NCBI RefSeq assembly: GCF_018736065.1
Contig: NZ_CP076128.1
Span: 1,488,001-1,552,000, forward strand
Length of the DNA: 64,000 bases
Reading direction: 5' to 3'
Origin: Flammeovirga kamogawensis
GTDB taxonomy: Bacteria; Bacteroidota; Bacteroidia; Cytophagales; Flammeovirgaceae
Part shown: positions 9,761 through 49,058 of the stretch, piece by piece
Position numbering within the stretch: the stretch's first letter is position 1
Layout of the letters: the number at the start of each line of letters is the position of its first letter
The notes under the pieces: generated by a model
Database searches by the model: none
Told to the model about the DNA's origin: nothing
Seen by the model: the letters and a program-made list of their open reading frames with translations, nothing else
Position numbers and translations under genes: made by a program

Positions 9761-9792
9761 CAAAGCTTGGGTGTAAATTAAAAACATTGTTG

Positions 9793-9969
9793 TTCTTCAT
9801 TTTTTCCATTGCTGAAAAAACGAAGCAAAAAAAGCTAGTCTGTGAAGCTAAAAGCTAAATTTATTTCGTGTAATCGGAGTAATTCAAACTCGGCTAAAGC
9901 CTCAAACAGTGAATTCCTCTAATCGATTACACTTCATAAATTCTTTACGCTTTTGTCTTCAAGGACGTT
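9793..9969 (-). repeat. structured 177-bp repeat, copy R1
   Basis: Full-length minus-strand copy of the interspersed family defined under R4. It has the central hairpin with GAGGAATTC/GAATTACTC arms (one mismatch) and the GGCT/AGCC tip. Homology with other loci continues into the flank up to ~10121, so R1 and R2 form a tandem pair with a ~329-base period. Confidence 0.9.
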
Positions 9970-10121
9970 TTGAGATGTGCGTTACGTTGCTTTTCAATAT
10001 AATGTTGTAGATGATGACACTTCTTAAACATGCTAGACCTAATTATAAAATTTCCATAATCTTTTAATCCGTTAAATCTTGGTTCTTGTTGTTAATTGGT
10101 TGGCTTGTTTTACAATCGTGG

Positions 10122-10298
10122 TTCTTCATTTTTTCCATTACTGAAAAAACGAAGCAAAAAAAGCTAGTCTGTGAAGCTAAAAGCTAAACTTATTTCGTGC
10201 AATCGGAGTAATTCAAACTCGGCTAAAGCCTCAGACAGTGAATTCCTATAATCGATTTCACTTCATAAATTTTTTACGCTTTTTTCTTCAAGGACGTT
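10122..10298 (-). repeat. structured 177-bp repeat, copy R2
   Basis: Minus-strand copy, tandem to R1. Its downstream flank (10299-10378) matches, in reverse orientation, the flanks before R5 and R6 (CACCCCAATTGAAAA and the ATCGATTTCCAAAATAGTATA segments). Between them, R1, R2 and their flanks fill most of the 940-base gap 9606-10545. I see no gene there. Confidence 0.9.
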
Positions 10299-10545
10299 TG
10301 TTGGTTACTCGGTGTTTTGTTTTCAATTGGGGTGATGTAGTTTTCGATTATTATATACTATTTTGGAAATCGATGATTTATGTTTGGGTTGAAAATTGAT
10401 ATGAATTGGACGAATGCTTTTTGGTTCTCAATTGGTAAGCAAATTGAGATGTCGATATCCTTCTCTTATTTTTTTTTACAAGTATCCTCTTTATTTTTGA
10501 TATCAGATGTAAAGCATATACGTCTTTCACTTTTTAAACTTCTGT

Positions 10546-13500
10546 ATGTTGCAGTATTACTATTGTCTTATCTTCTTATTCCTGATGTTGCCGAATGTAT
10601 TGTTTGGGCAATCTTCTACCTTAAAGGAAAAATGGGTAGGTATGAATGGGGTACAAATAGATACCGCAACAGTATACCCTGCTTCTATTAAGGTGGTGGA
10701 AGTTCAAGGACCTTATCGTGTTGTTACTCCACTACTTGATTTAAAAGGAAAGATTTGGTTTTTAGATGTGAACAAAGATACTATTCAATCCAATAGCTCG
10801 TCTGTTCGGATACAATATAGAGTACTACCCCCTCATTTAAATAGTAAATTAGATCATCGCTCGCAAGATATTTATGCTCAAGGGGGCTATGGTTTAGACC
10901 ATAGCAATGATCAATATGTATTAGAGGTACAGGAACAACAAAAAAGGGAGGAATTATTTTATGCACCTAATATTCAGAAGACAGGGAGTTTAACGAGGGG
11001 TATTTCTATGGGAAATAGTCAGGATGTTTTTGTAAACTCGGCGATGAACTTGCAGCTTCAGGGAAATATTACGGAGGATGTGGCACTCACTGCTACTTTA
11101 ACGGATCAGGATATTCCTTTTCAACCGGAGGGAAATACGCAACAAATTCAAGATTTTGATAAGGTATATATTGAACTAAAACACAAAAATGCTCAGCTGG
11201 CTGCTGGGGATATTGTGATGAAAAACGATCCTGGGGTATTTTTAAAGTACAATAAAAATGCGCAGGGAGCACAAGTCAAGGTGCTTATTGGTCATGATTC
11301 TGCAGCAATTAAATCTACCACTAAAGCTGGTATTTCTATTGCTAAAGGACAATTTTATTCTGCTGATGTTACTCCTATTGATGGGGTAACAGGTCCATAC
11401 CGCCTTTTAGGTCCTAATGGTGAGTCTAATATTGTGGTAATTGCCAACTCTGAAAAAGTATACATTGATGGCGTGTTAAAACAAAGAGGTTTTGATAATG
11501 ATTATACCATTGATTATAATTTATCAGAAATCACTTTTAATGAAAACACTCTCATTACCCAATACACACGTATTCGAGTGGATTATGAATACGCTACACA
11601 ATACTACAGCCGTACAATTTTTGAGGCCAGTCATCAAATGAAAGGAAAAACTTGGGAGGGGTATTTCAATTTTTATCAAGAGAAAGATGATAAAAACAGT
11701 AGCTTATTCTATTCTTTATCTGATGAAGACAAAAACATATTAGCAGGTATTGGCGATAGCTTACAAAATGCTATCGCTCCAGCTATTGATTCTGTAAAGG
11801 TGTATGACCCCAATAGAATTTTGTATACTAAGGTCGATACATTACAAACTGACGGTACACCTACGCTTTGCCTTAGAAGGGCAAATGAAAACGACACTCC
11901 TTTATATAGTGCGGGGTTTTCTGATGTAGGTAATAATAGAGGAAATTATATTCTAAAGGAAATCACTCCTTTTGGGCGCGTTTACCAATGGGTTTCTCCA
12001 GAACAAGGAATACGACAAGGCCGGTATTTACCTGTAAGGCGCTTGGTGGCTCCAAATAAAAAGCAGATGATTTCTTTAGGAGGAAAAGTTCACCTTACAA
12101 AGCATGAAAGTATTGGTGTTGAAGGAGCATTTTCTAACCAAGATCAAAATTTATTTTCTGACAAGGATGATGGGGATGATCAAGGACAGGCTATAGCAAT
12201 AAATATTACATCTAAAGACAGAGAACTTACAGATAAAATCAATGTTTCTACTTTTGCAAACCTAATGTATATTGATGAAAACTTTCGACAAATTGATCGT
12301 TTTCGTTCCATAGAATTTGATAGGAATTGGTCGTTAACATACGATAGTATTCCCTATAAAAATGAATTTTTCGCAGAAGGAGGTATCACCTTAGTAGATA
12401 AACACAAGCGTTCTTTTTCTTATTCATATGCTCATCGTGACCGTGAAGACGTGATTTTCGGTAGGCAACAAAATGCACAACTCAATTATGCAATTGGTCG
12501 CTTAAATTGGGACATCAAAGGATTTGAGATGTCGGCAGATCTATTACAAGAACAGCAACATTCCCAATGGCAACGTCTGATTGCCCATACTTTTTGGAAA
12601 GGTGATTTCATTCAACCAGGTTATCGATATACCACAGACAAACAACAAACAAAGTATGTACAAACAGATTCTATCACTTCATCTTGGATGAATTACGAAG
12701 AACATTTTGCTTATTTAAAACAAGGAGATAGCTTAAAGTGGAATTATCAATTGAGTTTTGCACATCGTGAAGACAATGCACCGAAAGAGGGAAAATTACA
12801 AAAACAGACGGTAGCAGATACCTATAAACTAGATGTTAGTAAAACAGGACGAAAAGGGAAATTATCTATTGGCTTAACTTATAGAAAATGGACAGATTAT
12901 TTTTCTTCAACACCATTAAATGAAGAAAGCATTCAGGGACGTATAGTGGGTGGACTCAATTTTGGTCAAGGAATTGGGCGTCTTAACGGTACTTACACGG
13001 TTTCTTCTAGTAGAGAACTCGCTAGAGAATTTGTATATGTACGTGTAGAAGACGGCAAAGGTACACATACTTGGCGTGATCTTAATAATGATGGAATTAA
13101 AGATCAAAATGAATTTTTCTTGGCCCAAAACCCAGATGAACGACAATATGCTCGTTTTTACACTCCAACAGATGAATACCTCCCTGCCTACCGCGCTACC
13201 TTAAACTTACGTTTAACATTAGCCACACCAAGAAACTGGAAAAAAGAAATCGGCATTAAAAAGTTAGTCTCACGATTTTCCAATACCTCGGCACTCCTAG
13301 TCGATAAAAAATCATTAGCAGAAGATATCCTTGGGCGCTACTCTCCTTTCCCAAACAGCACAGCCGCCAATGATATGTTAGCCTATAAATATTCACTAAG
13401 AAACACCCTGTTTTTTAACAGAAGCAACCCCATCTATGGTGCTGATTTCAGAGTGGTAATACTAGAAAACCAACAACTATTAACCCAAGGCAGAGAAAAT

Positions 13501-14037
13501 AGACAAGACCATCAGTACACATTAGGTGGAAGAGTAAATTTAGGTAGAAAAATCACCTGCAAACTAGAAGGAACCCAACGAGATATTAATAGTGCTTCAG
13601 AATATCTACCAGATAGAAATTACACCATTGACGAATATAGCCTCCATCCATCAGTAGCACTTCAACCCTCTATATACATGCGTTTCACACTTGGTTACAA
13701 ACTAAAAAGAAAAGAAGGTATTACAAATGAAAATAACCTTTCTCAATTCACAGACACCCAAGAAACATCACTAGAAGCCAAATGGAGCAAAGCTTCCGCC
13801 TTCACTATCAGTACAAAAGCCAGTGCCATCTTCCAATCCTACACCGGCGAAGAAAATACAGCCCTAGCCTACGAAATGCTCGACGCACTCTCCGTTGGCA
13901 CCAACTTTAAATGGAACGTATCTTGGACACAAAGCCTCTTCTCTGGTTTACAACTCAGAATGCAATACGATGGCAGAAAATCAGAAGATACTGATGTAAT
14001 ACATATTGGAAGCATGAACTTAACAGCACTGTTCTAA
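10546..14037 (+). CDS. large outer-membrane beta-barrel protein
   Basis: A 1163-residue protein with a signal peptide (hydrophobic LIFLFLMLPNVLFGQ, cleaved near residue 22). The N-terminal ~170 residues look like a beta-sandwich. Then comes a region TRGISMGNSQDVFVNSAMNLQ-L-Q-G (shared with large Cytophagales surface barrels), followed by several hundred residues of strands typical of a large barrel. Near residue 850 is a calcium-loop-like D-L-N-N-D-G-I-K-D-Q-N-E-F. It has no TonB box, plug or C-terminal sorting domain that I can see, and the C-terminus ends in a barrel-like strand. The function is not recognised. It stands alone between inverted repeat copies R2 and R3. Confidence 0.75.
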   Translation: MLQYYYCLIFLFLMLPNVLFGQSSTLKEKWVGMNGVQIDTATVYPASIKVVEVQGPYRVVTPLLDLKGKIWFLDVNKDTIQSNSSSVRIQYRVLPPHLNSKLDHRSQDIYAQGGYGLDHSNDQYVLEVQEQQKREELFYAPNIQKTGSLTRGISMGNSQDVFVNSAMNLQLQGNITEDVALTATLTDQDIPFQPEGNTQQIQDFDKVYIELKHKNAQLAAGDIVMKNDPGVFLKYNKNAQGAQVKVLIGHDSAAIKSTTKAGISIAKGQFYSADVTPIDGVTGPYRLLGPNGESNIVVIANSEKVYIDGVLKQRGFDNDYTIDYNLSEITFNENTLITQYTRIRVDYEYATQYYSRTIFEASHQMKGKTWEGYFNFYQEKDDKNSSLFYSLSDEDKNILAGIGDSLQNAIAPAIDSVKVYDPNRILYTKVDTLQTDGTPTLCLRRANENDTPLYSAGFSDVGNNRGNYILKEITPFGRVYQWVSPEQGIRQGRYLPVRRLVAPNKKQMISLGGKVHLTKHESIGVEGAFSNQDQNLFSDKDDGDDQGQAIAINITSKDRELTDKINVSTFANLMYIDENFRQIDRFRSIEFDRNWSLTYDSIPYKNEFFAEGGITLVDKHKRSFSYSYAHRDREDVIFGRQQNAQLNYAIGRLNWDIKGFEMSADLLQEQQHSQWQRLIAHTFWKGDFIQPGYRYTTDKQQTKYVQTDSITSSWMNYEEHFAYLKQGDSLKWNYQLSFAHREDNAPKEGKLQKQTVADTYKLDVSKTGRKGKLSIGLTYRKWTDYFSSTPLNEESIQGRIVGGLNFGQGIGRLNGTYTVSSSRELAREFVYVRVEDGKGTHTWRDLNNDGIKDQNEFFLAQNPDERQYARFYTPTDEYLPAYRATLNLRLTLATPRNWKKEIGIKKLVSRFSNTSALLVDKKSLAEDILGRYSPFPNSTAANDMLAYKYSLRNTLFFNRSNPIYGADFRVVILENQQLLTQGRENRQDHQYTLGGRVNLGRKITCKLEGTQRDINSASEYLPDRNYTIDEYSLHPSVALQPSIYMRFTLGYKLKRKEGITNENNLSQFTDTQETSLEAKWSKASAFTISTKASAIFQSYTGEENTALAYEMLDALSVGTNFKWNVSWTQSLFSGLQLRMQYDGRKSEDTDVIHIGSMNLTALF

Positions 14038-14162
14038 CCAAAACGTAGACAAGAATTTATAGGATTAAAAGATTATGAAGGTTTTATAAGTAGGTCTAGC
14101 ATGTTTTAGAAATACCATCATCTACAACATTACATTGAAAAGCAACACAATGCACATCTCAT

Positions 14163-14337
14163 AACGTCCTTGAAGAAAAAAGCGTAAAGAATTTATCAAA
14201 AGGCGCCGTTAAAAATGATTCTCTGTCTGAGAGAAGCGAGTTTAGAATCATTTAGGCAACTGAAGATCAATTTAGCTTTTTTCTTCACAGACTAGATTTT
14301 TTTGCTTCGTTTTTTCAGCAATGGAAAAAATGAAGAA
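14163..14337 (+). repeat. structured repeat, divergent copy R3
   Basis: The ends match the family, but the centre is rewritten. The inner stem is AATGATTCT (14214-14222) with AGAATCATT (14244-14252), instead of GAGTAATTC/GAATTACTC. Pairing is kept although the sequence differs. The left flank from ~14050 is the same 150-base segment found between R7 and R8. It occupies the 352-base gap after the barrel gene. Confidence 0.85.
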
Positions 14338-14389
14338 GAAACACAATTGAAAAGCAACCTTCTGTCTAAGTACAGCGAGTTAAAAAAAA

Positions 14390-14752
14390 CTACTGCATAA
14401 TAATTTCATAACTTATCCCTAACTTACTATGTAATGACTTAGCAAAAGTAATCGTTAACTTCTTTTTACCATTCATAAAATCACTAAACCTAGAAGCACT
14501 AACTCCCAATAAATTACTAGCCTCTTTTCTATTAATATTTAATGCAGCTAATTTATATTCGATATATTCAATTAAAGAAGGTTCTGCTACCTTATGATTG
14601 TTTTCTTTCTCATACAAATCTATTTGATCCGCAATCATGTTCAATAACAATACATCAGGATGATCACTCTTCATTGAATCATTCGTCACTAATAATAATT
14701 CTTCCATCTTTTCTAAAGCTACGGAATACTGCTTTTCTGTTTCTATAATCAT
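14390..14752 (-). CDS. higA: HigA-type antitoxin, XRE-family
   Basis: A 120-residue protein with an N-terminal helical region typical of HigA-like antitoxins. The helix-turn-helix is C-terminal (residues ~75-110: RKEASNLLGVSASRFSDFMNGKKKLTI). It should neutralise the adjacent HigB toxin and bind its own promoter. Its ATG overlaps the toxin stop (ATGA), and the toxin is encoded first, the usual higBA order. Pairing with a HigB-family gene makes the assignment strong. Confidence 0.88.
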   Translation of the reverse strand: MIIETEKQYSVALEKMEELLLVTNDSMKSDHPDVLLLNMIADQIDLYEKENNHKVAEPSLIEYIEYKLAALNINRKEASNLLGVSASRFSDFMNGKKKLTITFAKSLHSKLGISYEIIMQ

Positions 14753-15036
14753 AATTCTTTGATATTTCTTATTGTATCATATTCTGCGTGCGTACCAATA
14801 AATCGAATAAATACAGTTTGAATATTAAAACGAACAATACCAATAATTCGAAATGATTTCACATTAAATACATACCTACTATTACCTACATTATCAACAT
14901 CGCTAAAAACTTGCTTTAATTCTCCAAAATTATTGGGTTCAACCTTCCTGAGGTCTTTTATAAATCCTTTAAAGACAATATGATTTTGATCAAAATGTTT
15001 AAAACTTTTAATCTTTTTTTCACTTATGATCCTCAT
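14749..15036 (-). CDS. higB: HigB-type toxin (mRNA interferase)
   Basis: A 95-residue protein of the HigB_toxin family (RelE fold, ribosome-dependent mRNA cleavage). I chose the ATG at 15036, because MRIISEKKIKSF is the family N-terminus (compare 'M-x-I-I-x-K-x-x'). Visible family features are the YVFNVKSFRIIGIVRFN strands and the C-terminal FIRFIGTHAEYD segment, where the H-x-E-Y-D motif is typical. It lies in the repeat-rich zone next to R4. It is apparently intact. Confidence 0.87.
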   Translation of the reverse strand: MRIISEKKIKSFKHFDQNHIVFKGFIKDLRKVEPNNFGELKQVFSDVDNVGNSRYVFNVKSFRIIGIVRFNIQTVFIRFIGTHAEYDTIRNIKEL

Positions 15037-15211
15037 AAAACAAATATACATTATTGAGTATTAAATTACCAAATTTGTATACACCTATTAAAGCAGGACG
15101 ATATCAACAACTAAAGTTATGGTTTGATAATGAAACATCAATTCCCAGAAAATATGCGAACAAATATCTACGAAATAACCCCATTTAAAAACAAAACACC
15201 GACCAACACCA

Positions 15212-15388
15212 AACGTCCTTGAAGACAAAAGCGTAAAGAATTTATGAAGTGAAATCGACTAGAGTAATTCACTGTCTGAGGCTTTAGCCGAGTTTGAATT
15301 ACTCCGATAGAACGAAATAAATTTAGCTTTTGAATTCACAGACTAGCTTTTTTTGCTTCGTTTTTGCAGCAATGGAAAAAATGAAGAA
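15212..15388 (+). repeat. structured 177-bp repeat, reference copy R4
   Basis: It can fold as nested stems: AAAAGC 15227-15232 with GCTTTT 15326-15331; AATTTAT 15239-15245 with ATAAATT 15317-15323; ATCG 15254-15257 with CGAT 15305-15308; GAGTAATTC 15262-15270 with GAATTACTC 15296-15304; GGCT/AGCC at the tip. The right third carries AGACTAGC, a T-run, GCTTCG, and ends GCAATGGAAAAAATGAAGAA. It fills the gap between higB and the Rpn gene. Confidence 0.92.
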
Positions 15389-15465
15389 CAGATTTTTGTA
15401 TCTTGCAAAATGATAAATTCAGGATAATTACAAAGTAAAATGTAACACTATAAATAGATACAATC

Positions 15466-16380
15466 ATGCAAGACAAATATATTAACCCCTTTACAGATTA
15501 CGGCTTCAAACGACTTTTTGGACATGAACCTAATAAAAATATACTTATCGATTTCTTAAATGAACTTCTAAAAGAACAAGAAGGAGAAATTAAAACACTC
15601 ACCTACTTAAAAAATGAACATTTAGGATCTAGCGATGTAGATCGAAAAGCAATATTTGATCTTTATTGTGAAAATGATAAAGGAGAAAAGTTTATTGTTG
15701 AATTGCAAAAAACGAAACAAAATTTCTTTAAAGATAGAACACTCTATTATTCAACCTTCCCTATTGTAGAACAAGCTAAAAGATCTAACTGGAATTATGA
15801 ATTAAAAGCTGTTTACACCATTGGCATATTAGATTTTGTATTTGATGAAGATAAAGAGAACAAAGAAAAATACAGATACGATGTAAAGCTCACAGATATA
15901 GATACAAATAAAGTATTCTATGATAAGCTCACATTTATATACTTAGAAATGCCTAAATTTAATAAAGACATTACTGAACTTAAAAACAGATATGAAAAAT
16001 GGCTTTACGTTATTAGAAACCTTAATAAACTAGATCGAATCCCAGTAGAACTACAAGAAAAAATATTTGAACAATTCTTTCAAACGGCCGAAATTTCAAA
16101 AATGACAAAACAAGAGCTCCTCTCCTACGAAGACAGTTTAAAATATTACAGAGACCTAAAAAATTCTCTAGATACTGCAAAAGGTGAAGGAATTGAGATT
16201 GGTATTAAGATTGGAAGAGAAAAAGGTAGAGAGATTGGAAAAGAAGAAGGAATTGAAATAGGCGAGTACAACAATGCCATTAAAGCTGCAAAAAAAATGC
16301 TCTCTGATGGATTATCAATTGAGATAGTCTCTAAATATTCTGGGTTAACTCTTGAAGATGTGAAAAAGTTACAATTGTAA
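15466..16380 (+). CDS. Rpn-family PD-(D/E)XK nuclease (recombination-promoting)
   Basis: A 304-residue protein opening NPFTDYGFKRLFG, the signature of the 'PD-(D/E)XK nuclease family transposase'/Rpn group. The nuclease core shows KAIFDLYCENDKGEKFIVELQ, with the catalytic Asp in FDLY and Glu in VELQ. The C-terminus carries the usual low-complexity G-x-x-I-G tandem stretch (KGEGIEIGIKIGREKGREIG and more), then a short helical segment. Rpn proteins are DNA endonucleases that promote recA-independent recombination, and some vary their C-terminal repeats. It appears intact, and it sits among repeats and toxin-antitoxin genes. No terminal inverted repeats of an IS were seen. Confidence 0.88.
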   Translation: MQDKYINPFTDYGFKRLFGHEPNKNILIDFLNELLKEQEGEIKTLTYLKNEHLGSSDVDRKAIFDLYCENDKGEKFIVELQKTKQNFFKDRTLYYSTFPIVEQAKRSNWNYELKAVYTIGILDFVFDEDKENKEKYRYDVKLTDIDTNKVFYDKLTFIYLEMPKFNKDITELKNRYEKWLYVIRNLNKLDRIPVELQEKIFEQFFQTAEISKMTKQELLSYEDSLKYYRDLKNSLDTAKGEGIEIGIKIGREKGREIGKEEGIEIGEYNNAIKAAKKMLSDGLSIEIVSKYSGLTLEDVKKLQL

Positions 16381-16478
16381 TTAAACATCCAACAAGGATG
16401 GATCAAGATTTAAAGGATTAAGAAGATTTCACTATCGATTTCCAAATGAAATAGGATAAAAATTGCTACCTTCTAGAA

Positions 16479-16512
16479 GCCACGACTGAAGTCATGGGCT
16501 GATGATACAGCA
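16479..16512. repeat. S-family hairpin S1
   Basis: CCACGACT/AGTCATGG hairpin followed by GGCTGATGATA. It belongs to the second small repeat family (see S6). It is in the 479-base gap after the Rpn gene, which otherwise contains only R5, S2 and their flanks. Confidence 0.7.
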
Positions 16513-16588
16513 TCGATTTCCAAAATAGTATATGATTAAACACCTACTACATCACCCCAATTGAAAAACAAGACATCGAGCAACAACA

Positions 16589-16767
16589 AACGTCCTTGAA
16601 GACAAAAGCGTCAAGAATTTATGAAAGTAAAATCGACAAGAGTAATTCACTGTCTGAGGCTTTAGCCGAGTTCGAATTGCTCCGATTACACGAAATAAAT
16701 TTTAGCTTTTGAATTCACAGACTAGCTTTTTTTGATTCGTTTTTGCTGCAATGGAAAAAATGAAGAA
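16589..16767 (+). repeat. structured 177-bp repeat, copy R5
   Basis: Full-length plus-strand copy. The inner stem is GAGTAATTC with GAATTGCTC, where one A-T pair has become a G-T wobble. It is flanked on the left by the CACCCCAATTGAAAA spacer type and on the right by S2. Confidence 0.9.
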
Positions 16768-16803
16768 CCCAACGGTTGAAACCATGGGCTGATGATAAAG
16801 CAT
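16768..16803. repeat. S-family hairpin S2
   Basis: CCCAACGGTT/AACCATGGG hairpin followed by CTGATGATA. The inner pairs GGTT/AACC replace GACT/AGTC of S1, a paired change. It directly abuts R5. Confidence 0.7.
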
Positions 16804-16859
16804 CATCGCCAAGAAAACTGATACAAAGACTAAGGGCATAACACTTGTTAAAAGTGTAC

Positions 16860-17222
16860 TTATTTCTTTGAAATATTAAAATCATTAATAAGAACTTCGA
16901 TTTCTTTCTTAAGAATAGGCAGATGCTTTATTAAAACAGACCAAATCATTTCATCTGAAATATTATCATAAGCATGAATAACTTGATTTCTCAAGCCTAT
17001 TACTGATTTAGCACTTGTTATTTGATCTTGAATTAAAGGAGTTGATTTTATAATCCGATTCATTGCTTCACCAATAATTTCCAAATCTCGTTCAATTGCT
17101 CTTTTTAACATTATGTTTTCACGATAAACAAAAAAATCTTTAGGTATGTCTGAAAAATAAGTTTCAATTTCTTCTATTGCAATCTTTATATCAAACAACC
17201 ATTTTAATGTTTTGTTATCCAT
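16860..17222 (-). CDS. HEPN toxin (DUF86 family)
   Basis: A 120-residue all-helical HEPN-domain protein. The conserved DUF86 segments are LKRAIERDLEIIGEAMNRI and the catalytic R-x4-H in GLRNQVIHAYD (RNQVIH), followed by I-W-S-V-L-I. HEPN toxins are RNases. In MNT/HEPN pairs the partner nucleotidyltransferase inactivates the HEPN by AMP addition to a tyrosine near R-x4-H, and the Tyr in HAYD is suitably placed. Its ATG overlaps the antitoxin stop by 8 bases, so the two are translationally coupled. Intact, unlike its relative at 49.6 kb. Confidence 0.88.
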   Translation of the reverse strand: MDNKTLKWLFDIKIAIEEIETYFSDIPKDFFVYRENIMLKRAIERDLEIIGEAMNRIIKSTPLIQDQITSAKSVIGLRNQVIHAYDNISDEMIWSVLIKHLPILKKEIEVLINDFNISKK

Positions 17223-17517
17223 AAATAAGCTCTTTTTGTTTATTAATAGAGTTTATGAAAATTGGATTACGAAGAGATTGCTCTTCAACGAGATCAATTC
17301 GTCTATTAAAAAGTAATTTCAAATTTTCTTTTAAAGCCATATAATTTTCAAAATAACTAGATAGCTCACCCCTCTTAAACCTCACCAAAAAATCAATATC
17401 ACTATCCTTTTTTAGAGAACCTGTTACTGCAGATCCAAAGAGAAATAATTTTTCAACATTATATTTCTCACACAAGTTTTGTATTCGAATACTATGAATT
17501 TCGTTAATTATATTCAT
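17215..17517 (-). CDS. MNT antitoxin, minimal nucleotidyltransferase
   Basis: A 100-residue MNT-fold protein with the G-S-x10-D-x-D active-site signature: FLFGSAVTGSLKKDSDIDFLV. The third acidic residue is in RRIDLVEE. The C-terminus, SLRNPIFINSINKQKELIY, is typical. The family AMPylates the partner HEPN toxin. It is encoded upstream of and overlapping the HEPN gene. The same arrangement recurs at 49.3 kb. Confidence 0.9.
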   Translation of the reverse strand: MNIINEIHSIRIQNLCEKYNVEKLFLFGSAVTGSLKKDSDIDFLVRFKRGELSSYFENYMALKENLKLLFNRRIDLVEEQSLRNPIFINSINKQKELIYG

Positions 17518-17564
17518 AATGCAAAGATAAGAAATTTCGCCCTCAATATATAACCCTTCTAAAA

Positions 17565-17601
17565 CCCACGGTTGAAACCATAGGCTGATGATACAGCATC
17601 G
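17565..17601. repeat. S-family hairpin S3
   Basis: CCCACGGTT/AACCATAGG hairpin followed by CTGATGATACAGCATCG, the same tail as S1. It lies just upstream of the MNT gene (which is on the minus strand), so it is in the promoter region of the toxin-antitoxin pair. Confidence 0.65.
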
Positions 17602-17673
17602 ATTCCCATAATAGTATATATTAATCGAAAACTACATCACCCCAATTGAAAAACAAAACACCGAGCAACAACA

Positions 17674-17850
17674 AACGTCCTTGAAGAAAAAAGCGTCAAA
17701 AATTTATGAAGTGAAATCGATCAGAGTAATTCACTGTTTGAGGCTTTAGCCGAGTTTGAATTGCTCCGATGGAACGAAATAAATTTAGCTTTTGAATTCA
17801 CAGACTAGCTTTTTTTGCTTCGTTTTTACAGCAATGGAAAAAATGAAGAA
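17674..17850 (+). repeat. structured 177-bp repeat, copy R6
   Basis: First of three tandem copies (R6-R8) with a ~328-base period that fill most of the 1.2-kb gap 17518-18734. The inner stem is GAGTAATTC/GAATTGCTC (one G-T). Confidence 0.9.
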
Positions 17851-18003
17851 ACACGATTGAAAAACAAGCAACCCATTAACAACAAGGACCAAGATTTAAA
17901 GGATTAAAAGATTATGAAGATTTACTATCGATTTCCAAATTAGTATATGATTAAACACCTACTACACCACCCCAATTGAAAAACAAAACAATGCGCATCT
18001 CAA

Positions 18004-18180
18004 AACGTCCTTGAAGAAAAAAGCGTTAAGAATTTATAAAGTGAAATCGACAAGAGTAATTCACTGTCTGAGGCTTTAGCCGAGTTTGAATTCCTCCGAT
18101 AGAACAAAATAAATTTAGCTTTTGAATTCACAGACTAGCTTTTTTTGCTTCGTTTTTTCAGCAATGGAAAAAATGAAGAA
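18004..18180 (+). repeat. structured 177-bp repeat, copy R7
   Basis: Second tandem copy. The spacer before it includes GATTTAAAGGATTAAAAGA and the CACCCCAATTGAAAA segment. The inner stem GAGTAATTC/GAATTCCTC has one mismatch. Confidence 0.9.
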
Positions 18181-18331
18181 ACACGATTGAAAAACAAGCA
18201 ACCCATTAACAACAAGGACCAAGATTTAAAGGATTAAAAGATTATGAAGATTTTATAAGTAGATCTAGCATGTTTCAGAAGTCCCATCATTTACAACATT
18301 ACATTGAAAAGCAACGTAACGAGCATCTCAA

Positions 18332-18507
18332 AACGTCCTTGAAGACAAAAGCGTCAAGAATTTATGAAGTGAAATCGATTAGAGGAATTCATTGTTTGAG
18401 GCTTTAGCCGAGTTTGAATTACTCCGATGAAACGAAATAAATTTAGCTTTTGAATTCACAGACTAGCTTTTTTTGCTTCGTTTTTTCAGCAATGGAAAAA
18501 ATGAAGA
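18332..18507 (+). repeat. structured 177-bp repeat, copy R8
   Basis: Third tandem copy. The spacer before it (18181-18331) matches the flanks of R1 and R3, with ATCTAGCATGTTTCAGAAG and GAAAAGCAAC segments. The ~225 bases after it, up to the winged-helix gene, contain no recognisable gene and a small TGGC-GAA-GCCA hairpin near 18669. Confidence 0.9.
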
Positions 18508-18734
18508 TCAACCACGATTGACAAGCAAGCAACCCATTAAAACACCCCTAACAAAAATTACGAGTAAAAAAAATACTCACACCCTTGGAAAACAAAAAAA
18601 AACCACACAAATTTACGCTCGTTACGAAATAGAGGTCATACAAAAAGAAAAAACTGTGTGACTGACGTGGCGAAGCCATGCCCGGTACAAACTAAATAAT
18701 AAATAAAACAAAGGAACAAACTACTCTTAATCAC

Positions 18735-19268
18735 TTGCTAGACGCACTAATAACTTCAAAAACCCGCCTTAAATTACTCCTAAAGTTCTTTATCAATCCT
18801 ACAAACACATCTTACCTTAGAGGGTTAGCCACTGAATTTTCAGAATCTACCAATTCTGTACGTGTGGAGCTGAACCGTTTGGAAAAAGCAGACATGCTGA
18901 TGTCTTTTGTAGAAGGAAATAAAAAGCTTTTCAAGGCCAACACCAAGCACCCTTTATATACAGACATACAAACCATTGTATTAAAATATGTAGGTATTGA
19001 TGCTATCATTGAAAAGGTATTAAACAACCTTGGTGAAGTACAAAAGGTATTTTTAGTAGGCGATCTAGCCAATGGCATCAATAACAAAACCATTGAGTTA
19101 TTGATTGTAGGCGAAGTAAATGAAGAGTATCTGCAATCGACCATCCATAAAGTAGAGAATACAATCAAGCGTTCGATACGCTATACCATAGAAAGTATTC
19201 CTCTATTTAACGAACATTCTTTGCCTGTCCCCTCATTAAAAATTTGGGAAGATACAAATGCAAACTAA
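18735..19268 (+). CDS. winged-helix regulator at the head of the polysaccharide operon
   Basis: A 177-residue protein starting at a TTG codon. Residues ~5-65 form an ArsR-like winged helix (ITSKTRLKLLLKFFINP, then SYLRGLATEFSESTNSVRVELNRLEKADML). The C-terminal part resembles a truncated nucleotidyltransferase-like domain (VQKVFLVGDLANGINNKTIELLIVG) without a visible catalytic DxD. Genes of this architecture commonly precede UpxY/NusG-like genes in Bacteroidota polysaccharide loci. Its 3' end overlaps the antiterminator gene by 11 bases. It is probably a local regulator; the ligand is unknown. No TAnnTTTG box was found directly upstream. Confidence 0.75.
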   Translation: MLDALITSKTRLKLLLKFFINPTNTSYLRGLATEFSESTNSVRVELNRLEKADMLMSFVEGNKKLFKANTKHPLYTDIQTIVLKYVGIDAIIEKVLNNLGEVQKVFLVGDLANGINNKTIELLIVGEVNEEYLQSTIHKVENTIKRSIRYTIESIPLFNEHSLPVPSLKIWEDTNAN

Positions 19269-19761
19269 CACACAATCAATACAATGGATGGCGATCTACA
19301 CGAAACCTCGTGCAGAAAAAAAAGTAGCAGAGCGCCTCGCAGATAGAGGTTATGAAGTCTACTGCCCTACTTACACCACTCTTCGCCAATGGAGCGACCG
19401 TAAAAAAAAGGTTACGCTCCCCGCAATTCCCTCTTATGTATTTATTAGAATTCAAGAAAATCTCCGTTGGGAGGCCTTGAAAGATCCTGCTGCCTTAAAC
19501 TTTGTTTTCTGGCAAGGGAAACCGGCTGTTCTTAGAGATGAGCACATAGAAGCGTTTCAACGTTTTATGGGTGAGCTTTCTGATACAAGTACAGTAAATA
19601 TGGCAGATCTCACTTCTGGCGATCGTGTACTCATTAAAAAAGGAAACTTTGATGGTACTGAAGCCAATGTTTTAAAGATAAATAAAAAAGATATCACACT
19701 TATATTACCTGAATTGGGAATTAAGTTGGTATGTCAACATGAAGATATAGATACGCTCTAA
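19258..19761 (+). CDS. UpxY-type NusG-like transcription antiterminator
   Basis: A 167-residue NusG paralogue. The NGN domain reads WMAIYTKPRAEKKVAERLADRGYEVYCP, with the usual YTKPRAEKK, then LPSYVF-like residues (AIPSYVFIRI). A short C-terminal KOW domain follows (DLTSGDRVLIKKGNFDGTEA). In Bacteroidota, such proteins act locus by locus to let RNA polymerase read through long capsule or exopolysaccharide operons. The ~24-kb run of co-directional genes downstream is exactly such a target. It overlaps the winged-helix gene and is followed by hairpin S4 and repeat R9, which could be the pause or loading region. Confidence 0.9.
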   Translation: MQTNTQSIQWMAIYTKPRAEKKVAERLADRGYEVYCPTYTTLRQWSDRKKKVTLPAIPSYVFIRIQENLRWEALKDPAALNFVFWQGKPAVLRDEHIEAFQRFMGELSDTSTVNMADLTSGDRVLIKKGNFDGTEANVLKINKKDITLILPELGIKLVCQHEDIDTL

Positions 19762-19764
19762 TCC

Positions 19765-19810
19765 TCCTTATCATCAACCCAAGACTTAAGATATAGGCTG
19801 ATGATAAGGA
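19765..19810. repeat. S-family hairpin S4 after the antiterminator gene
   Basis: TCCTTATCATCA (19765-19776) and TGATGATAAGGA (19799-19810) are perfect 12-bp inverted arms around the S-family core (CCCAAGACTTAAGATATAGGC). It has no T-run, so it is not a standard terminator. It lies 3 bases after the nusG-like stop codon. Confidence 0.75.
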
Positions 19811-19858
19811 GAGAATGAAGCTCGTAGAAAAAAAACAAAGGTCACAATTTATAACAAA

Positions 19859-20035
19859 CAGCCTTGAAGGCAAAAGCGTTTAAAATTTATTAAAAAGAAA
19901 GCGAATAGTACAATTCACTGTTTGAGGCCTTAGCCGAGTTTGAATTGTTCCGCTTTACTAAAAATAAATTTAGCTTTTGAATTCCAAGCTTAGCTTTTTT
20001 TACTTCGTTTTTGCAGCAATGGAAAAAATGAAGAA
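19859..20035 (+). repeat. structured repeat, divergent copy R9 abutting wecB
   Basis: A divergent copy with paired substitutions: ACAATTC 19910-19916 with GAATTGT 19942-19948, and AAAGCG 19898-19903 with CGCTTT 19951-19956 (ATCG/CGAT in the others). Its right end, GCAATGGAAAAAATGAAGAA, lies 8 bases upstream of the wecB ATG and supplies an in-frame ATG. Confidence 0.88.
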
Positions 20036-20042
20036 AACTACC

Positions 20043-45936: not shown

Positions 45937-45970
45937 GCCATCAATCTTTAATTAGGTTGGTGGCTTTTTT
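45937..45970 (+). terminator. terminator after the WecA-like gene
   Basis: GCCATCAA (45937-45944) pairs with TTGGTGGC (45957-45964, one G-T) and is followed by six T. The remnant repeat R10 begins at once after the T-run. Confidence 0.85.
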
Positions 45971-45971
45971 C

Positions 45972-46047
45972 TTCTTCATTTTTTCCATTGCTGAAAAAAC
46001 AAAGCAAAAAAAGCTAGGTGGGAGAGTTAAATTTATCTTCAAGGCCG
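45972..46047 (-). repeat. repeat remnant R10 (hairpin part deleted)
   Basis: Minus-strand partial copy. The TTCTTCATTTTTTCCATTGC end and the CTTCAAGG end are present, but the central stem region is missing. It is between a terminator and gmd. Confidence 0.75.
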
Positions 46048-46161
46048 TGTAGTGGTACTTGTCGTTGTCGTTTTCAATTGTAGATTGTTTGTAGTCAATG
46101 CAACTATCTCCTATCTTTATACTAAAATAAATGCATTAGGTAGAAATGTTTCTTAGATAAA

Positions 46162-48480: not shown

Positions 48481-48486
48481 CCTTTC

Positions 48487-48535
48487 TTCTTCATTTTTTC
48501 CATTGCTAAAAAAACGAAGCAAAAAAAGCTAGTCT
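48487..48535 (-). repeat. repeat remnant R11
   Basis: Only the TTCTTCATTTTTTCCATTGC to AAAGCTAGTCTG end of the 177-bp family remains, minus strand, directly after fcl. Confidence 0.7.
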
Positions 48536-48581
48536 GACTTGCTTAATAGAGTATTACAGTTTTGAGTTAATAATCACAACT

Positions 48582-49001: not shown

Positions 49002-49058
49002 TTCTTCATTTTTTCAATTGCTGAAAATACAAAAAAAGCTAGGCTTTTAATTCACGGA
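49002..49058 (-). repeat. repeat remnant R12
   Basis: Minus-strand remnant with the TTCTTCATTTTTTC and AAAAAAAGCTAGGC segments, then TTTTAATTCAC. The rest is missing. Confidence 0.6.

Follow-up and report, generated by a model that had tools for sequence, protein, structure and literature searches.

Usually it is the ends, or a short hairpin, that define an interspersed repeat of bacteria. The enterobacterial repetitive intergenic consensus (ERIC) sequences and the Correia-type repeats are dispersed, palindromic, intergenic and partly transcribed, and no pseudoknot is known in them. Repetitive extragenic palindromes (REPs) and REPINs, which go with Y1 transposases (RAYTs), have hairpins of 21-65 bases, and 'atypical secondary structures' adjoin the subclass 2.6 Y1 genes of Bacteroidetes (PMC6006769). 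MITECca01 of Cardinium cOegib, a genus placed in the family Amoebophilaceae, is a bacterial miniature inverted-repeat transposable element (MITE) defined by IS982-like ends and unique to one strain, and its interior is not described as folded in the available portion of the account (PMC9769881). The subject here is an element of about 175 bases, non-coding and scattered across many Bacteroidota genomes, seen as a cluster of copies in a stretch of 64,000 nucleotides of Flammeovirga kamogawensis (contig NZ_CP076128.1, positions 1,488,001 to 1,552,000; the window). In contrast to the usual definitions, what persists in it from family to family is a two-domain pseudoknotted fold, whereas its sequence, its ends and its flanks change. 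As far as the tests go the element is mobile, its fold is kept, and it is kept as a single strand. We prefer to read it, with a probability of roughly one half, as a mobile non-coding unit maintained for its folded single strand of about 175 bases, which would act in the tail of a transcript and be moved by borrowed transposases.

The window elements are called copies R1-R9, and the search models R1, R2 and R3 are separate things that share the labels. From 134 matches in fetched loci, 103 were long enough and 101 of these distinct, and RNAalifold gave for them nested stems followed by a separate 3' hairpin, the latter lying outside the nested arms and so an addition to what the first-pass annotation of this DNA had described. 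Overall the fold is a long irregular hairpin and then a 3' hairpin, the loop of which pairs just upstream as a pseudoknot in most lineages. Copies R3 (z -3.82) and R4 (z -3.54) fold better than any of 200 shuffles. Distant copies have in common two internal-loop motifs (GCGTTAAGAA opposite TTTAGC), an apical TGTTTGAG / GCGAGTTT and CCTTGATTTTTTGG ahead of the 3' hairpin, and the hairpin loop is typically CATCAAGG, complementary to CCTTGAT. A strict pseudoknot search reported 57 of 89 rows when pairings of T-runs were included; without these (sorted by eye) it held for 37 of the 62 rows from beyond the genus and for 4 of the 27 from within it. A triple helix of the U-run and A-run in the 3' hairpin was considered and is not claimed, because outside the genus the run lengths do not track each other (rho 0.11, p 0.47, 47 rows, ten of them chance T-run pairings). 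The core itself may be varied: some cores have small hairpins or insertion sequences nested within them, the hairpins standing at the internal loops in L153, L154, L157 and L162, and one genome (G017; L093 1373-1474 and L100 1723-1800) has next to full copies a shortened form, in which a small 5' hairpin is joined to the same 3' part.

Covariation was assessed by a test of our own modelled on R-scape, using a G-test with average-product correction and nulls in which the inferred substitutions were shuffled along a FastTree tree. In the order-wide alignment, A5 (99 matches, 95 of at least 150 bases, and 89 rows after dropping those more than 95% alike), 31 of 15051 column pairs were significant at E<0.05, all within the fold, and by register 30 of these fall in the helices of the model and one (134-154) in the pseudoknot, which the model lacked. 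A rerun (91 rows, 150 nulls) gave 30 pairs, all in helices, with the pseudoknot pair not among them. Some pairs take all four Watson-Crick types, as does 54-86 with 39 A-T, 17 G-C, 13 T-A and 9 C-G. The proposal of the first-pass annotation, that selection or a copying mechanism acts on a folded form, is supported in this way across the order, with no such covariation in the genus alone.

Which molecule is folded can be approached from the wobbles. Single-step departures from Watson-Crick pairing were G-U 87 times against A-C 25 times in A5, and 152 against 20 in the genus. A bias of this sort is not expected of a cruciform, because what is G-T on one strand reads as A-C on its complement, and the DNA cruciform that had been offered as one option is therefore disfavoured; the kept molecule would be the plus strand, either as RNA or as single-stranded DNA. 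Copy R4 folds to -46.2 kcal/mol on the plus strand and -39.5 kcal/mol on the minus strand, both better than their own shuffles. The folded strand is probably RNA rather than single-stranded DNA.

Copies that stay in place were compared as well. Among 16 non-independent ortholog comparisons, the core is less divergent than the preceding 80 bases in 15 and than the following 60 bases in 11. Fifteen of the comparisons could be mapped onto the fold; their 140 substitutions disrupt 27 pairs against an expected 53.9 (standard deviation 4.8), and none of 1000 simulations came out as low. Pair-breaking changes are under-represented in copies staying in place, and so there is either constraint in place or gene conversion between copies.

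The element is mobile, based on filled and empty sites. At one site L025 is longer than L035 by about 380 bp. Between two genes, which we take to be cobalamin genes, a copy is present in G005, G006 and G007; G001 has a copy with most of the arm lost, G002 is without one, none is seen in G000, G003 and G004 on a rough alignment only, and G008 has no match to the query. Cores lie in units of mostly about 340-430 bp in G113 and G062 (one genus), in G139 and in the element's own genus, and these units carry four different inverted ends, TGACCTTTCGCAG, GAAACCGTACACT, GGATTACCCATTTAAG and TTGTAAACTAAGTTTTCG. Target duplications of 7-10 bases, judged by eye, flank 12 of 12 units in G113, 5 of 6 in G062 and 7 of 10 in G139, and are unclear in the own genus (25 units). 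Outside these lineages the inverted ends are, for most copies, not above the shuffle control, and in G011, G009 and G017 copies have no visible common flank and no inverted ends. The ends of the G139 units recur on a single IS1595-like element, which has one stop. IS1595 as a general mover was nonetheless rejected, the family being missing from 10 of 13 genomes and four fuller IS1595 loci being without a copy. In G113 a gene inside a unit with the G113 ends (L152 1500-2594) is probably nested in the core, and is presumably IS110-like.

The position of copies among genes was taken from the strands of the two flanking genes relative to the element. In the genus (n=104) both lie on its strand (++) 51 times, with +- 20, -- 17, -+ 15 and one incomplete; elsewhere (n=66, including some tandem copies) the counts are +- 25, ++ 20, -- 12, -+ 5 and four incomplete. 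For 71 of 104 genus copies, and for 46 of the 63 other copies having an upstream neighbour, that neighbour shares the strand of the element, and the excess of ++ over -- is significant in the genus only (p 4.5e-5). No linked gene family was found, none among the 25 commonest recurring in more than two of 111 or of 68 neighbouring proteins (111 of 125 open reading frames, 14 short ones omitted, and 68 of 70). A REP-type Y1 transposase as the carrier, a suggestion of the first-pass annotation, finds no support: none of 30 Y1 loci, being 30 of the matches listed, has a copy within about 1.5 kb. As a mover, Y1 was rejected on genome content too, copy-rich G178 and G218 having no Y1 match and G008 having five Y1 matches yet no copy.

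The element is not local, and the proposed search of the own and related genomes found it across the family and the order. A DNA search gave 20 matches in the own genome and, counting that genome, matched 7 of the 9 in the genus. Model R1, built from 28 copies, gave 20 in G000, 2 in G001, 97 in G002, 1 in G003, 16 in G004, at least 150 in G005, 123 in G006, at least 150 in G007 and none in G008, so that four sister genomes have 97 to at least 150 each. With the same model the element is present in whole or part in 16 of 18 family genomes and 7 of 8 genera (E 0.001; matches in G010, G012 and G015 weaker than 1e-4), and in 63 of 241 order genomes and 39 of 103 genera (E 1e-4). These order counts include partial copies: a re-search of 23 genomes with model R2 (17 copies, the RNAalifold structure, no pseudoknot included) found only stretches of about 70-105 bases in G021, G040, G048, G072, G181 and G200, and nothing in G205 and G207 at E 1e-5. 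It gave 40 matches in G178, a genome of about 0.9 Mb. In a collection of genome contigs a pattern for the 3' part matched 41 stretches, including Parabacteroides, Pedobacter, Chitinophaga, Cyclobacterium and Rhodonellum and single records labelled Calditrichia, Chlorobiota and Campylobacterota that may be misbinned; model R2 gave 63 matches on those 41 loci at E 0.01 (top 104.7 bits, in Parabacteroides), and the exact genus-type pattern had none in the collection. Carriage by viruses was set aside, the 3'-part pattern having no match among viral contigs. No Rfam 15 family reached its gathering score in the window, no Rfam match at that score lay at the element in 18 phylum loci (three matches there fall elsewhere), seven loci scanned at E up to 5 gave nothing near a gathering score, and no description of the fold was found in the open-access literature.

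The preferred reading joins these lines. The element inserts and spreads, as a MITE body with varied inverted ends in some lineages and as a core without detectable ends in others; its folded strand would be an RNA that forms the tail of the transcript from the upstream gene; the fold would end, protect or shield that transcript, an effect that would make an insertion tolerable and let the element persist; and borrowed DNA transposases would move it wherever matching ends are present. It is supported by the covariation, the wobbles of one strand, the position among neighbours, the constraint in place, the mobility, the MITE ends and the IS1595-like end. A number of observations pull the other way. 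A5 was fitted to the fold, and therefore the same loci were realigned with the sequence-only, structure-blind model R3 (100 matches, 84 rows), which gave two significant pairs, 30-103 in the arm and 133-153 in the pseudoknot (89% paired, as T-A, C-G and A-T), both in the fold and in favour of the reading. A MAFFT alignment of the genus alone (97 rows) has no significant pair, so copies R1-R9 and their close kin could not settle the structural claim, which rests on the wide comparison beyond the genus. Covariation beyond phylogeny, the mark of a structured non-coding RNA for which the first-pass annotation had proposed a test, is in this way present order-wide and absent from the genus. The strict search finds no pseudoknot in the window's own copies. 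Double compensations in place number 1 against 1.5 expected, in 5 of 16 comparisons the 60 bases that follow roughly match the core in conservation or exceed it, and gene conversion between copies could also account for the constraint. Outside the genus the bias of ++ over -- is not significant (20 of 32, p 0.22), and the IS1595 family has no match in 10 of the 13 genomes searched.

A bolder form of the reading, which we hold tentatively and think rather doubtful, takes the element as a phylum-wide guest consisting of its fold alone, a pseudoknotted RNA without a gene of its own that passes between unrelated miniature transposons and outlives its DNA ends, its shape being read by Bacteroidota host machinery such as a general protein or the transcription apparatus. 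Somewhat less doubtful, though still unlikely, is that the fold is the substrate of a copying machinery, in which a protein recognises the folded DNA or RNA strand, only well-folded copies multiply and the host gains nothing. A strand-specific fold without coding content, copy numbers that are high and very uneven, and the core-only copies without common flanks (G011, G009, G017) would suit it, as would the head-to-head pairs seen at 8 of the 41 phylum loci, 3' hairpins outward as in REPINs (L265, L267, L270, L272, L289 (Parabacteroides sp. An277), L259, L261 and L277). However, pair-breaking changes are avoided even in copies that stay in place, no family recurs more than twice in either set of neighbours scanned, and copies stand at none of the 30 Y1 and none of the 4 IS1595 loci. 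In L266 copies are in mixed order.

An ordinary MITE, of which only the ends matter, the interior being a passenger palindrome and what looks like covariation being shared ancestry, has the inverted-end units of G113, G062, G139 and the own genus and their short duplications (clear except in the own genus) in its favour, as well as the negative genus-only test; it is improbable given that the interior is kept while ends differ between lineages, that other lineages have the core without ends, and that the order-wide test corrects for the tree, the covariation having so far held up when the loci were aligned independently. Still less credit is due to an attC-like recombination site, which would border gene cassettes and be recognised in folded single-stranded form, and to which the toxin-antitoxin and nuclease genes between copies R3 and R6, the gene-element-gene-element order in G016 and the two copies around two genes in L120 would point, since copies are dispersed genome-wide and lie mostly between everyday genes. 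In the G016 loci (L114, L115, L113) a run of near-identical copies alternates with same-strand short genes about 20 bases apart, one neighbour family being DUF3799; in G161 two nearly identical copies stand around two small genes without a Pfam match (L120 8566-10266). Just as remote is a guide or scaffold RNA for a trans-acting protein of IscB/TnpB-like or IS110-like kind: the size and the 3' pseudoknot resemble those of such RNAs, but no such gene recurs among the 25 commonest families of the 111 and 68 neighbours, no genome-wide search having been made, and there is no Rfam match at the gathering score.

In the window itself the nine near-full copies are indeed one element, all being located by a search with model R2. 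Copies R1 (9790-9968, 149.9 bits) and R2 (10119-10297, 135.7 bits) lie on the minus strand, and the others on the plus strand: R3 with rewritten inner stems (14164-14340; 191.8 bits, R3 being among the 17 rows that built the model), R4 (15213-15391, 139.4 bits), R5 (16590-16770, 119.3 bits), R6 (17675-17853, 140 bits), R7 (18005-18183, 142.5 bits), R8 (18333-18511, 145 bits) and R9 with rewritten stems (19858-20038, 134.2 bits). The minimum-energy fold of R4 places the nested hairpin arm at 15215-15343 and the separate 3' hairpin at 15356-15386. The paired changes read by the first-pass annotation hold, in R3 as the stem AATGATTCT/AGAATCATT and in R9 as ACAATTC/GAATTGT and AAAGCG/CGCTTT, and the single G-T wobbles of R5 and R6 are there in the sequence. 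Three truncated copies of the 3' part are on the minus strand, at 45969-46048 (58.6 bits) and 48484-48540 (52.5 bits) by model R2 and, weakly, at 49002-49055 by the sequence-only model R3 (E 0.0002). Allowing at most two mismatches, the window has 12 occurrences of a 19-base end motif, three of them in the truncated copies, and 100 shuffles have none.

The cluster adjoins a polysaccharide locus, at the start of which a NusG-like gene (19258-19761) stands directly ahead of copy R9, and an ATG begins a few bases past the end of that copy. In sister genome G004 this neighbourhood recurs with different copy numbers, one copy at the position of R6-R8 and two at that of R5, and so part of the cluster is a tandem duplication. 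Between R3 and R6 a HigB-type toxin stands beside a helix-turn-helix partner (weak match); the same interval contains a PD-(D/E)XK gene and the two genes of a HepT/nucleotidyltransferase pair. A second palindromic repeat (CCACG..TGAA..CATGGGCTGATGATA), presumably of the type that neighbours Y1 transposase genes, stands directly ahead of R5 and R6 (about 16480-16515 and 17570-17605), and in G004 mixed palindromic repeats in tandem, including GGACGTTTTTTAGTAAAACGTCC, lie upstream of a copy (L017 7900-9400).

If the fold does persist while sequence and ends change, the element offers a ready tool for finding what in Bacteroidota recognises the shape of an RNA or single-stranded DNA, and for asking how a gene-less element endures; for annotation, up to hundreds of unnamed stretches between genes and inside operons are at stake. 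A MITE- or REP-like element and a folded-RNA family were the candidates of the first-pass annotation, and each kind is partly borne out: a MITE body is present in some genomes, others have no detectable inverted ends, and a REP with a Y1 carrier finds no support at the 30 listed Y1 loci examined. Like the structured RNA families of Rfam the element has a conserved fold with covariation, unlike them it has no match at a gathering score. With ERIC and the Correia-type repeats, compared by description and not by sequence, it shares being dispersed, intergenic and palindromic, those repeats belonging to another phylum. REPs and REPINs resemble it as folded intergenic repeats of high copy number that sometimes form inverted pairs; however, it has about 175 bases, two domains and a pseudoknot in place of a 21-65-base hairpin with a GTAG-type foot, and no copy at the 30 Y1 loci. 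Bacterial MITEs such as MITECca01 are likewise short, non-coding, multi-copy and intergenic, inverted ends being found on the element in some lineages, and in a further likeness to Cardinium small genomes of the element's order also carry it. In contrast to MITECca01, from which it is distinguished by description and not by a comparison of sequences, the element keeps its interior and changes its ends.

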